Origin: Archangiaceae bacterium
GTDB taxonomy: Bacteria; Myxococcota; Myxococcia; Myxococcales; Myxococcaceae
Direction: 5' to 3'
DNA: 47,326 nucleotides
NCBI GenBank assembly: GCA_016879935.1
Contig: JAACJQ010000268.1
Span: 1-47,326 of the forward strand
The stretch's first letter is position 1; each line of letters begins with the position of its first letter. Of this stretch, positions 12,346-17,454 are shown piece by piece. The notes under the pieces are model-generated. The model did no database searches. It saw nothing but the letters and a program-made list of their open reading frames with translations, and was not told the origin of the DNA. The position numbers were made by a program, and so were the translations under genes.

Positions 12346-12622
12346 GTCTGGGCCTTCAGTGCCGTTCACGGCTTGCTCCAAGTTCACGGATGACCGTGCC
12401 TCAAGAACCTGACCTCCAGCTCTCCACCGCGTAGCGCATAGTCGAGCGGCATGGCGCATGTCCGCCCATCAGGTCGGCGGAGGCCGATGCGACAGCGTGC
12501 GGCAGATCACGTCCGACGCGCAGCGAGTGCACTGCAGATGCTGCGTGCGCCGGGGAAGTCGCCAGTTCCTGCTCGTGTGCGCCGTGCGCCTCGATGGCAT
12601 GTCTGGAGCACGACGCGAGCAC

Positions 12623-14248
12623 ATGGCTCGGGCACACGTGCATCGGTCGCTCGTCTGGTGGTCTCTCGTGCTTGCGCTCGGTCAGGGTTGCAACTGCGGC
12701 TCCGAGCCCGGGCTCGACGGTGGCCGGCCCGATGGCTCCGTGCTGCTCCCCGATGGTGGCGCTCCCGATGCGTCGGTCTCGTGTTCGCCCACGGGCGTCG
12801 AGGTCTGTGACGGCGTCGACAACGACTGCGACGGCAAGGTCGACGATGGCTTCACCCTGCTCTGCGCGCCGTGCAGCAGCGGTGGCACGTGCATCGAAGC
12901 GAAGCTCACGGGCGGCGGGTTCAAGTCGGGCGCGCGCCGAAACCTCACCATCGGGAACGACCGTGGCATCGCGCTGCCTCCGGTGCCGCTGCCGCAGCCG
13001 TACATCTTCATCTCGAACTCGGGCGACGGAACGGTCTCGAAGATTCGCACCAGCGACGCGGTCGAGGTCGGCCGCTTCATCGTCGGCGACAACCCGTCGC
13101 GCACGGCAGTCGATGGAAACGGAGACGCGTGGATCGCGATGCGCGGCGACACGAGCGACCGCGGCGGAGGCCCCCTCGAGCACGTCGTGAAGCTCGCCGG
13201 TGCGTGCACGCCATCGACACGGCCTCCGACGCCGACGCGTGAGTGCATTCTGCTCGACCTCGCCGACGTCGGAAATCTGCTGCGTGGCGTCGCGGTCGAC
13301 GCGGCCAACGACGTGTGGATTGGCTCGTACGCGACGAGCGAGGTGGTTCGACTCGACGGCGTGTTCGGTACGGTGCTCGAGCGCATCGCCGTGCCCGGCC
13401 ACCCGTACGGCATCGCCATCGACGAGCACGGCAACCTCTGGCTCTCGGCGCACGACCAGACGACCTACGCCGCGGGCCACGTCATTCGCGTCGACACCGT
13501 GACGAAGACGGCGACGTTGCACCTGTCGGGCCCCGAGCTCGAGAACCACTCGACGTACGGCCTCGCGGCCGACGGTGAAGGCGGCGTCTGGTTCGCGGAC
13601 TACGGCGCGGCGGTGTACCGCATCGACGCCGAGACGGGCGCGTTCGGGCCCTCGTGGGACGTGGCCGGCATCACCCGCGGCGTGGCCGTCGACGACCAGG
13701 GCTTCCTCTGGGTGGCTGACTCCGCGGGCTCGCAGCTGGTGCGCGTGAACCGACGCACGGGCGAGACGCTGGCCGCACACGTCGGCGATGGGCCGGTCGG
13801 CGTCGCGGTCGACCACGAAGGCAACATCTGGAGCGTCAACACCAACTCGAACGACGCCACCAAGGTCTCTCCCGACGGCGGGCTGCTCGCGACGGTGCCG
13901 GTCGGCAACGCGCCGTACACGTACAGCGACATGACGGGCGCCGCGTACCGGCTCTTCCGCAAGCTCAACGGCACCTTCACTGGCAGCTACGACACGGGCA
14001 TCGCGGGCGCGACGTGGGAGTCGCTGCGGTTCGCCGGCAACGTCCCGCCTCCGTCGACGTTGAAGCTCAAGCTGCGCGCGAGTGACGGCTACCTCTCCAC
14101 CGCAGCGTGGAGCGAGGTGACGCTCTCGGGTTCGACCGCGGTGCTGAACCTCGTCGGCGCGAAGCTGCAGGTCGAAGCGCTCCTCTTCACCGACGACCGG
14201 CGCGCGCAGCCGAACGTCGAGAGCCTCACGTTCACCTTCCGCCGCTGA
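12623..14248 (+). CDS. Exported beta-propeller lipoprotein with MopE-like motif
   Basis: A 541-residue protein from ATG 12623. The N-terminus (MARAHVHRSLVWWSLVLALG then QGC) looks like a lipoprotein signal, although the lipobox is weak. Next comes CDGVDNDCDGKVDDGF, the MopE-type Asp-rich motif common in myxobacterial surface proteins. The rest is a repeated propeller of the NHL/virginiamycin B lyase (Vgb)-like kind: GVAVDAANDVWIGSYATS, GIAIDEHGNLWLSAHD, GLAADGEGGVWFADYG, GVAVDDQGFLWVADSAG and GVAVDHEGNIWSVNTNS. It is probably a surface binding protein; lyase activity is not supported. Its stop overlaps the ribosome-binding site (GAGGG, 14247-14251) of the next gene, so the two are probably coupled. 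Confidence 0.8.
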   Translation: MARAHVHRSLVWWSLVLALGQGCNCGSEPGLDGGRPDGSVLLPDGGAPDASVSCSPTGVEVCDGVDNDCDGKVDDGFTLLCAPCSSGGTCIEAKLTGGGFKSGARRNLTIGNDRGIALPPVPLPQPYIFISNSGDGTVSKIRTSDAVEVGRFIVGDNPSRTAVDGNGDAWIAMRGDTSDRGGGPLEHVVKLAGACTPSTRPPTPTRECILLDLADVGNLLRGVAVDAANDVWIGSYATSEVVRLDGVFGTVLERIAVPGHPYGIAIDEHGNLWLSAHDQTTYAAGHVIRVDTVTKTATLHLSGPELENHSTYGLAADGEGGVWFADYGAAVYRIDAETGAFGPSWDVAGITRGVAVDDQGFLWVADSAGSQLVRVNRRTGETLAAHVGDGPVGVAVDHEGNIWSVNTNSNDATKVSPDGGLLATVPVGNAPYTYSDMTGAAYRLFRKLNGTFTGSYDTGIAGATWESLRFAGNVPPPSTLKLKLRASDGYLSTAAWSEVTLSGSTAVLNLVGAKLQVEALLFTDDRRAQPNVESLTFTFRR

Positions 14249-14256
14249 GGGCCACC

Positions 14257-17200
14257 ATGAAGACCGCGATCCTCTCGACGCTGCTCCTCTCGGCGCTGGC
14301 ACACGCCACGCCCGCAGACGTCTTCATTCTCATCGACACCTCGGGGAGCATGGCGCGCCCGCTCGGCACTGGAGATGCGCGACTCACGCTCGCGAAGCAA
14401 ACCGCGCGTGACGTCATCGCCGCCATCCAGAACGACCACCGCGTGGGGCTCGCGCGGTACGCCCAGCTCGAGCGGGTGTTGCCCGGGGGTGAAGGCAAAC
14501 GCGCGGTGCTCGGAGAAGACCCGCTGCAGTGCGACCACGGCTCGAACCTGCTCGCGGGCATGGACGTCGCGGGCGCGAACGAGGCGCTGCGCTGGCTCGA
14601 TGGCGTCGAGGCCCTGGGCAACCCCGAGCTGGTGCCGATGGGTGACTCGCCGCTGGTGCGTGGCGTGGAAGTCGCCGTCCAGTACATCCGGAACAAGCGG
14701 AGGGCCGACCCACTCCGGCACTGTGTGAACGCGGTGCTCCTCGTCATCACCGATGGGCTCGACACCTGTGTCGGAGGCAGTGAACTGCGCGGCACGCTGG
14801 CTGACCTGGCGACGAAGGCGAGCCGTGAAGACATTCGCACGCTGGTGCTCACGTACACGCCCGACGCCGAAGCGGCGAAGGCGGTCGCGAAGATCGGCAA
14901 CGCTGACGGAGTTCCTTTCACCGACGCGGCGCAGTTCCTCGCTGCTGCGCGCAACATCACCGGCCGGCTCGCTCCCGAGGCGTGCCTCGCGTCGGGCGTC
15001 GAACCTTCGAAGCTCGGCATCGTCTCGACCGAGGCTGACGCTGGCGTGACCTGCACACCCACCGCACCCACCGGGTGTGGCTGCGGCTCGACCGAGACCT
15101 CTGGCCTCATCGCGCTCACGGCCGTGCTCGTCGTGGCGAGCGCGCGCAGAAGGCGATGGCTGCTCGTCTCGGTCTTCGCGCTGGGCCTGGGCTGTGTGCA
15201 GACGAAGCCGACGTGCACCACCGACGCGGGGACGCCGGCGACGACGCTGAAGGAGCCCGCTGCCGTTCGTGACGAGGCGCTCGCGCGTGTGCCCATGCTG
15301 GTCGCCGGCGCCGAGGCCGTTCGTCGCGACGTCTTCGACCCGCTGCTCGTGCCCGAGAAGGTCTTCGCGAAGGTGAGTGACACCGACGGCTGTCTGGCGC
15401 TCGTGCGTGGCATCGGCTTCGAGCCGTACGTCGGCGTTCAACGCGGCGTGGCCGGCTGTCTCTCGACGCGGCGGTGCAACAGCTTCGACAAGGCGCTGCT
15501 GCTGAAGGCCTGCCTCGACGCGAAGGGCGTGAGCTCGGAGCTGCAGGTCTGCAACGACACGCCGGCCTCGATGCGCGCGCTGCTGCTGGCCGAAGCGAAG
15601 AAGGCGCTCGTGTTGCCAGACCTCTCGGCGGCGACGGCGAAGGAGCGTGAAGTCGCGCTCCAGCTGTTCGGTGACCCGGCCATCGTCGCGCGCCTCGACA
15701 CGGCGACGGCTGGCCGCGACGAAGCGGTGAAACAGTTCTTCTCGACGGCCATCGCGGGCGACGTCTCGACGCTGCTGCCGCTCGCCAACCTCGACGCCAC
15801 CGCGACCGACACCGAGGCCACCGCGCGCGCGAACGTCGGGCTCGAGCGCTACGGCTTCGTGAAGGTGGGCACCCGCAACCTCGACCCGACGCTGGCCGGC
15901 TCGGCGGTCGAGATGGGCTCGTGCGGCGATGGTCCCTTCGTCCCAGCGACCGAGGCCATCACGCTGAAGGCCGAGGTGGTGCTCCAGTACGTCGGCGGTG
16001 TTGGCGCGTGGAAGCGGCCCGAGCTCATCGCTGCCACGCTCTCGGTGAAGCCGTACGAGGTCTTCGGCCAACACCTCACGATGGGCCTCGCCGAAGCGAC
16101 CGTGGGCACGCTGGGCTTCGCAGTGCCGGCGGTCTCGACGACGGGGTGTCTGCGCGCGTTCCTCGAGGTGGGCTCGACGAAGGTTCGCGGTGAGCCGTTT
16201 CACATCGGCTCACAGGACTCGACGAGCTGTCCTTCGATGTCGCTCTCGCCTGACGAGCCGGGCCGGCGCCTGTCGAAGGTGACGCTGCGCCTGACGACGA
16301 ACGTCGCGAACAAAGAGACCGTCATCGACCGCGTGATGGTCGACCGCTACGGCTACGCCGCGAGCGAGACCGCCGCAGAGGCCACGGGCCCGATGTACTC
16401 CGACGGCACGGCCCGGCGGCTGCTCCCGATGCGCGCCGACGTTCTGCTGCTCTCGGGTCTGCCGTCACCTGCAGCGCTGCGCGACGTCGCTGCTCGAGAG
16501 GCCATCGTTCGCCGCGCCGACTTCGAGGCGCAGCTGGCTCAGCTCGCGGGCATGCCCGTCGCGACGCCGCCTCCAGGGCCGCCGTCTCCGCTGCCGTTCG
16601 CGATTCTCGGAGCCGTGACCCACTTCTCCCCGCCCGAACTGGGCACGGGGCTCGCGCTGGTCGTCGAGCGCCCGTGGCTGTTGAGTCAGGTGCGCCGGCG
16701 CGGCTTTGGCGTCAGCGGTGCCGCGCTCGACATCGTCGACCAGACCATCGTCGACGTGGTGGACGCGCCGCTGCTCGTCGTTCGTGCAGACAACACCACC
16801 GCTCCGTCTGCGCGTCTGCGAGCGCAGGTCGCGATGGCGGCGCTGGTGACCGAGGCCGAGACCGTCGCTGCGCGCATCAACGGGCTCGATGGCGTGGTGA
16901 GCGCCGCGACGATGCTTCGTGACCCGTCGCTCGCAGGCAAGTGGGCCGCGATGGATCCACAGAACCTCGACCACTCGCTCTTCCCCGACGCGGTCGTCGA
17001 AGCAGCCTCGGTCTATTCAGGGCAGGTCGTCGTCGCGACGCCGGGCGCGGTGAAGAGCGACGCGGCCGACCCCATCATCGCGTGGTGGCGCTTCGACAAG
17101 CGCACGGGCCAGGGGCTTGGCGAGCTGCGCTTCGAAGGCACGTTCTACGGCGGTGTGCCCGGCATGCTCGCGACGGCGAAGCTGCTCGTCGACCTCGACA

Positions 17201-17454
17201 AGTGTCTCTACGCGGGAGCCAGCGCGGCGCTCATGGGCGGTGAGGAGTGCGACCTGCGGCCGTGTTTCAAGGCGGCGTTCGACTACTACAAGCAGGCGCT
17301 CGCCATCGAGTTCGCGGGCGGAGCGCTCGTCGCCTACGGCGGCTACGCCCACTGGAGTCACTCGCTGGTCGAGGTGATGGAGTACTCGTGGGAGGTCTTC
17401 GGCGAAGCGGTCAGGGCCTGGCTGCACGGCGGCAAGGTGATCACCTGTGGCTGA
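14257..17454 (+). CDS. vWA-domain exported protein fused to transglutaminase-like lipoprotein
   Basis: A 1065-residue frame from ATG 14257, eight bases after the propeller gene. A cleavable signal (MKTAILSTLLLSALAHA) is followed by a von Willebrand A domain with the MIDAS motif DTSGSM (27-32) and TDGLDTC. At 274-300 it reads like a MYXO-CTERM tail: CGC, a hydrophobic stretch, then RRRR. The frame does not stop there. It runs on through WLLVSVFALGLGC, which with the Arg run looks like a second signal peptide with a lipobox (Cys313). The C-terminal part has a transglutaminase-like RRCNSFDKALLLKACL around Cys407 and then about 600 residues I do not recognise. Either this is a true fusion or a stop has been lost between two exported proteins. 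A GTG at 15133 could start the second part. Confidence 0.75.
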   Translation: MKTAILSTLLLSALAHATPADVFILIDTSGSMARPLGTGDARLTLAKQTARDVIAAIQNDHRVGLARYAQLERVLPGGEGKRAVLGEDPLQCDHGSNLLAGMDVAGANEALRWLDGVEALGNPELVPMGDSPLVRGVEVAVQYIRNKRRADPLRHCVNAVLLVITDGLDTCVGGSELRGTLADLATKASREDIRTLVLTYTPDAEAAKAVAKIGNADGVPFTDAAQFLAAARNITGRLAPEACLASGVEPSKLGIVSTEADAGVTCTPTAPTGCGCGSTETSGLIALTAVLVVASARRRRWLLVSVFALGLGCVQTKPTCTTDAGTPATTLKEPAAVRDEALARVPMLVAGAEAVRRDVFDPLLVPEKVFAKVSDTDGCLALVRGIGFEPYVGVQRGVAGCLSTRRCNSFDKALLLKACLDAKGVSSELQVCNDTPASMRALLLAEAKKALVLPDLSAATAKEREVALQLFGDPAIVARLDTATAGRDEAVKQFFSTAIAGDVSTLLPLANLDATATDTEATARANVGLERYGFVKVGTRNLDPTLAGSAVEMGSCGDGPFVPATEAITLKAEVVLQYVGGVGAWKRPELIAATLSVKPYEVFGQHLTMGLAEATVGTLGFAVPAVSTTGCLRAFLEVGSTKVRGEPFHIGSQDSTSCPSMSLSPDEPGRRLSKVTLRLTTNVANKETVIDRVMVDRYGYAASETAAEATGPMYSDGTARRLLPMRADVLLLSGLPSPAALRDVAAREAIVRRADFEAQLAQLAGMPVATPPPGPPSPLPFAILGAVTHFSPPELGTGLALVVERPWLLSQVRRRGFGVSGAALDIVDQTIVDVVDAPLLVVRADNTTAPSARLRAQVAMAALVTEAETVAARINGLDGVVSAATMLRDPSLAGKWAAMDPQNLDHSLFPDAVVEAASVYSGQVVVATPGAVKSDAADPIIAWWRFDKRTGQGLGELRFEGTFYGGVPGMLATAKLLVDLDKCLYAGASAALMGGEECDLRPCFKAAFDYYKQALAIEFAGGALVAYGGYAHWSHSLVEVMEYSWEVFGEAVRAWLHGGKVITCG
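15076..15195 (+). other. MYXO-CTERM-like tail running into a lipoprotein signal
   Basis: Within the vWA gene, 15076-15156 encodes CGC, a Gly/Ser/Thr spacer, about 15 hydrophobic residues and RRRR. This is the layout of the C-terminal MYXO-CTERM sorting tag. The same RRRR is directly followed by WLLVSVFALGLGC (to 15195), a typical lipoprotein signal core. An end tag and a start signal therefore share four arginines with no stop between them. GTG codons at 15124 and 15133 are possible starts for a separate lipoprotein. Confidence 0.6.

Follow-up and report, generated by a model that had tools for sequence, protein, structure and literature searches.

We analysed a window of 47,326 nucleotides, the whole stretch of DNA from contig JAACJQ010000268.1 of an Archangiaceae bacterium (GCA_016879935.1, genome G000 in what follows). 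By translation of the window, a single stop-free frame of 1065 aa runs on the + strand from ATG 14257 to a stop codon ending at 17454, and holds in order a signal peptide, a von Willebrand A (vWA) domain, a MYXO-CTERM, a second signal (WLLVSVFALGLGC) and a second half of 753 aa (Table 1). The Pfam match of the vWA domain covers residues 21–70 (PF00092, 25.1 bits against a cut-off of 23.8) and includes the metal-site motif DTSGS, of the DxSxS type, at residues 27–31. Searches of the second half with profiles and against PDB sequences returned neither Pfam nor PDB matches, and an AlphaFold2 model of this half (four sequences) was unusable, with a pLDDT of 37. One segment of the second half, RRCNSFDKALLLKACLDAKGV (15469–15531), recalls what we take to be the Cys region of transglutaminase-like domains; profile searches gave no support for this likeness.

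Table 1 Features of the fused gene and of its upstream neighbour in the window. Slashes mark putative cleavage points.
Feature	Positions	Strand	Basis
Upstream gene, lipoprotein-like, with MopE metal-binding motif and NHL/Vgb-type propeller	12458–14248	+	Pfam matches
First signal peptide, MKTAILSTLLLSALAHA/TPADV, signal peptidase I type	14257–14307	+	Sequence, by eye
vWA domain, proposed product 1 of the precursor	14311–15042	+	Pfam PF00092
Internal MYXO-CTERM: GCGC, hydrophobic stretch, RRRR	15073–15156	+	TIGR03901, residues 273–300
Common RRRR, which would anchor the first segment on the cytoplasmic side and form the n-region of the second signal	15145–15156	+	4/4 residues kept
Second signal, lipoprotein type, WLLVSVFALGLG/C, lipobox Cys313	15157–15195	+	Conserved Cys313, Gly at −1
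Proposed lipoprotein formed by the second half (753 aa, Cys313 onwards)	15193–17451	+	No recognised domain

The two sorting signals meet at residues 273–313 (15073–15195), which read GCGCGSTETSGLIALTAVLVVASA-RRRR-WLLVSVFALGLGC, and no stop codon separates the parts. The MYXO-CTERM is not C-terminal, as 765 further residues follow in frame. TIGR03901 scored 17.2 bits on the whole protein, below its curated cut-off of 20, but this rose to 21.0 bits with the protein cut after RRRR, and the genome search gave 23.8 bits. The protein also has an N-terminal signal peptide (MKTAILSTLLLSALAHA, recognised by eye), as expected of a MYXO-CTERM protein. The second signal, called like the others from motif and hydropathy, comprises a basic n-region, a hydrophobic core and a lipobox Cys (RRRR-WLLVSVFALGLG-C, with a 12-aa hydropathy peak of 2.46); it is internal (residues 297–313) rather than N-terminal and lacks a conserved start codon. 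The original prediction, that a MYXO-CTERM tail runs in frame into a lipoprotein signal with which it has an Arg run in common, was thus right in sequence and coordinates; the frame is stop-free, and orthologues conserve the arrangement.

Only two other species hold this protein among 40 relatives. Both are separate MAGs of the same genus as the window, G002 (JADCJJ01) with 69% and G003 (JAUXRI01) with 49% identity, and both have the identical stop-free fusion arrangement, adjoined by the MopE/NHL lipoprotein-like gene as in the window. Their junctions read ...SGCGCDSSSAVPFIATLAVTAAFSTRRRRRVLVSSLVVMLFVGC in G002 and ...TGCGCALGSGAQSHGPGLLIVGALLAVATLRRLRARRALVVGVLGLTLAIGLSFAGC in G003. GCGC, four basic residues, Cys313 and the Gly at −1 are invariant in the three species, the lipoboxes of which end in LGLGC, LFVGC and SFAGC; apart from GCGC and the basic run, the CTERM stretch is merely 42–54% identical among the orthologues. 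Neither a split orthologue nor either half alone was found: the second half was absent from the other 93 of 96 family genomes and from the rest of 195 phylum genomes, bar a weak match of 22.5 bits in G013, and the vWA half was absent from 142 other genomes of the order (145 searched). Convincing matches to either half were confined to G000, G002 and G003 across the 96 family, 145 order and 195 phylum genomes. Two candidate homologues, an FtsK (L004) and the G013 match (L012), were rejected as weak and chance-like.

Substitution patterns between G000 and G002 differed along the gene. With pN/pS values of 0.27 and 0.45, respectively, the vWA part and the second half are both protein-coding and constrained. 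The hinge between them is fast-evolving (0.79), close to the first signal peptide (0.74). All four residues of RRRR were nevertheless kept despite near-saturated synonymous sites (pS 0.92–0.96), which indicates conservation at the amino-acid level. No constraint on synonymous sites or at the nucleotide level was found at the window joint, and codon identity around the Arg run was among the lowest of the gene (rank about 540–610 of 635 windows), evidence against a conserved ribosome-binding site inside the gene.

Joints of this kind are not confined to the window gene. We searched five genomes, one of them a single 9.0 Mb contig, with TIGR03901, the second signal playing no part in the search. 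In G000, 25 of the 30 best matches ended at most 13 aa before the stop and five were internal, while the four further genomes gave one internal match of 14, three of 19, eight of 18 and one of 13. Summed over the five genomes, 18 of 94 MYXO-CTERM matches were internal, where the per-genome counts are lower bounds with part of the candidates scored, thresholds differed slightly (the best 30 matches in G000, E up to 0.02 in the other four) and MYXO-CTERMs with tails up to 20 aa were classed as terminal. Seventeen of the 18 internal MYXO-CTERMs directly precede a second hydrophobic segment (binomial P about 2e-17, against a rate of 8.8% in random 30-mers of fused ORFs). Given this recurrence, and as both orthologues retain the fusion, GCGC, the basic run and the lipobox Cys, the joint is beyond chance. 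In all five internal cases in G000 (the window, C73, C14, C255 and C164) a second signal follows on from the Arg run, and two of these (C255 and C164) are adhesin-like proteins fused to beta-barrel/OmpA proteins.

L153 (G002:C122:368-448) has an internal MYXO-CTERM match followed by a 45-aa Arg-/Glu-rich extension without a second signal. In L052, L053 and many others, an adhesin-like part, a MYXO-CTERM, an AxA signal and a beta-barrel with OmpA follow one another in one frame (compare MXAN_5598, below), an order that resembles a TraA/TraB-type pair in fused form.

When 195 genomes were searched with a profile built from six hinges, matches that were full-length and free of stops came from many genera in several Myxococcota families. 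We read 46 of these hinges; because the profile included the second signal, this set shows range rather than frequency. The majority of second signals have an AxA ending of the signal peptidase I type, in many cases followed by Gln, and the others have a lipobox. The lipobox hinges fall into at least three orthologous families: that of the window (3/3 fused), a metalloprotease/CAP-like family with 12 loci fused in six genera, and the C134 family, in which 10 loci of five genera are fused and one further locus is cut by a contig edge; the lipobox Cys is present in all fused loci of the latter two. Three genomes (G078, G010 and G076) instead encode the second half of the metalloprotease/CAP-like family as a separate lipoprotein that starts at its own Met. 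In the Ig/CARDB family, where the second signal is of the AxA type, 25 of the 30 loci inspected were fused, and the fusion spans several families and two orders. Of its remaining loci, three are cut by a contig edge, G028 is apparently stand-alone and G128 has no hinge.

Individual loci extend this picture. L050 (G000:C73, 2246–8677) combines a metalloprotease-like part, a MYXO-CTERM and the lipobox LLAGC in one frame of 2143 aa, the second half of which carries MopE motifs and then a second, terminal MYXO-CTERM; its orthologues are L171–L179, L181 and L184. L051 (G000:C14, 3222–8246) has two alike Ig/CARDB modules in one frame, each ending in a MYXO-CTERM and with a signal peptide between them. 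The hinge DNA of L170–L175 contains CGCCGGAGGCGGGAAAGGCG, a purine-rich stretch of 20 nt with AGG codons that does not vary among six species; it is followed at a fixed position by ATG or GTG in six of seven species and by CTG in G006. Codon identity at this hinge lies in the top tenth, and CGCCGGAGGCGGGAAAGGCG may mark an internal ribosome-binding site with a retained start in the metalloprotease/CAP-like family of this genus.

We consider it likely that the window gene encodes a polyprotein which is translated straight through and from which MrtX and Lgt/LspA would cut free two lipid-anchored proteins. The first signal peptide would export the vWA domain, the hydrophobic stretch of the MYXO-CTERM would then halt transfer with RRRR staying in the cytoplasm, and the same RRRR would serve as the n-region of the second signal, so that the remaining chain would be exported as well. 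A cut by the myxosortase MrtX near GCGC would produce a C-terminally anchored vWA protein, whereas lipidation and cleavage at Cys313 by Lgt and LspA would produce an N-terminally anchored lipoprotein. The two partners would be made in equal amounts, and a two-helix hairpin would be left over. The original prediction had pictured an element that is cut inside; the cleavages expected here lie at the two outer ends of the hairpin and not within it.

In favour of this model, beyond the conserved fusion with its invariant motifs and the recurrence of such joints in the phylum, the genome of the window has an mrtX gene (G000:C442:3049-3336; NF040593, 343 bits, cut-off 180). Published work shows MYXO-CTERM to be cleaved by MrtX in a manner that depends on its cysteines, the lipidation of which has been proposed, and internal tripartite tags are reported to undergo processing in other systems (PMC11980579 and its references 45 and 46). 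Some features of the window count against the polyprotein, including the Gly at −3 of the lipobox, which is permitted yet uncommon, and the score of the CTERM on the whole protein, below its cut-off. So does the fact that we know of no case in which LspA acts on an internal signal downstream of a membrane segment; a search of the open-access literature on internal LspA sites or fbcH yielded nothing usable.

Three other explanations were weighed. The stop codon could be missing through sequencing, assembly or a very recent mutation, and the evidence is indeed sequence-based and drawn from mostly draft genomes, the window-group genomes being draft assemblies and G002 and G003 MAGs. However, three species at 49–69% identity have a common stop-free frame, and hinges are also carried by single-contig genomes, for example G089 and G040. 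A check of the orthologues for one gene or two found a single fused gene in 3/3, none with a stop after RRRR; since all known orthologues are fused, a stop lost to sequencing or assembly error, one of the options originally put forward, is refuted, and a missing stop in any form can be practically dismissed. The gene likely originated as an old in-frame gene fusion. The other option put forward was internal translation from GTG 15124 or 15133, whereby the lipoprotein half would also, or mainly, be made from its own start in the hinge as a nested separate lipoprotein. We regard this as unlikely. The GTG codons do exist, that at 15124 is common to G002, and the metalloprotease/CAP-like family in the same genus has its ATG or GTG at a fixed hinge place in 6/7 species. 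G003, however, has CTG and GTC where 15124 and 15133 align, neither GTG is preceded by a clear Shine-Dalgarno sequence, codon identity at the window hinge is low, as described above, and the stop-free frame would still yield the full-length chain. Start codons were also not enriched in the 46 hinges (ATG 2.96, GTG 2.96 and TTG 3.48 per 100 codons) compared with 30 terminal MYXO-CTERMs (3.88, 5.44 and 2.91, respectively). ATG was absent from 31 of the 46 hinges, and ATG, GTG and TTG were all absent from eight; together with these rates, this makes hinges in general unlike start sites. With differing codons in G003, no start enrichment and no nucleotide-level constraint, internal translation in the window is unsupported.

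A membrane hairpin that stays uncut is likewise improbable. The fusion of two genes would then yield one protein with two periplasmic domains, and the signals would be relics. Uncut hairpin anchors are common in biology, and the Arg run meets the positive-inside rule for both hairpin helices. Such a hairpin gives no reason, however, why GCGC and Cys313 should stand at its outer edges and be invariant in a fast-evolving hinge, nor why all 22 fusions in the metalloprotease/CAP-like and C134 families should keep the equivalent lipobox Cys. Many relatives, moreover, end in a beta-barrel OmpA half, which must leave the inner membrane.

Beyond the window, we find it somewhat likely that Myxococcota use a standard hinge, a MYXO-CTERM plus signal peptide with a common Arg run, that would split polyproteins, with one edge cut by a myxosortase and the other by LspA or signal peptidase I. 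Since the same joint recurs across the phylum, Myxococcota probably cut many surface proteins in pairs from longer precursors, much like some viruses. To our knowledge, there is hardly a precedent for bacterial polyproteins processed by two different membrane proteases. If the polyprotein is processed as proposed, one translation would give two partner surface proteins, and a pair in which both partners carry lipid anchors, as predicted for the window, would be a new variant. Single genes would then supply matched pairs of surface proteins in a fixed ratio, such as an adhesin with an outer-membrane anchor, a vWA protein with a lipoprotein, or a protease with a lipoprotein, and some “MYXO-CTERM proteins” would be wrongly annotated as single products. 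Searches restricted to the C-terminus would then miss part of the substrates, from 1/13 to 8/18 of the matches in four of the five genomes searched. The putative enzyme that lipidates MYXO-CTERM could also be tested on natural substrates that carry a classic Lgt/LspA site about 40 residues away.

Several known systems resemble parts of this arrangement. In viral glycoprotein polyproteins (e.g. of bunyaviruses), a stop-transfer helix is followed by an internal signal peptide and the chain is cut into surface proteins; unlike the window gene, these use eukaryotic signal peptidases, and there is no evolutionary relation. The fbcH cytochrome b/c1 precursor of Bradyrhizobium is a polyprotein cut at an internal signal peptide after membrane segments, but by signal peptidase I only, without a sorting tag or lipobox. 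Abdul Halim reportedly described in 2017 a Haloferax volcanii ArtA substrate whose tripartite signal is not C-terminal and which is still processed. That substrate and the window protein both hold a C-terminal-type sorting signal within the protein, although ArtA is an archaeal system. In TraA/TraB of Myxococcus xanthus, as in the window, a MYXO-CTERM protein and a second exported partner are encoded directly adjacent, however as two overlapping ORFs rather than a single one (PMC11980579).

The closest likeness is to MXAN_5598 of M. xanthus, which has an atypical internal MYXO-CTERM, perhaps owing to gene fusion, in a study that calls internal motifs rare and whose authors propose that the N-terminal part is processed and anchored (PMC11980579). 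Both MXAN_5598 and the window gene have an internal MYXO-CTERM followed by a second exported part in a single ORF. The first region of MXAN_5598 is an adhesin and its second part a beta-barrel OmpA protein, whereas the second half in the window has no OmpA or other domain, OmpA-type fusions occurring elsewhere in the window genome. The main text on MXAN_5598 describes no Arg run common to a second signal, no lipobox version and no frequent occurrence (PMC11980579). MXAN_5598 also appears in a published list of vesicle proteins (PMC4158809). The novelty originally claimed for a bifunctional sorting element therefore holds in part: the internal MYXO-CTERM had already been published with MXAN_5598, and the cuts expected in the window protein flank the hairpin.
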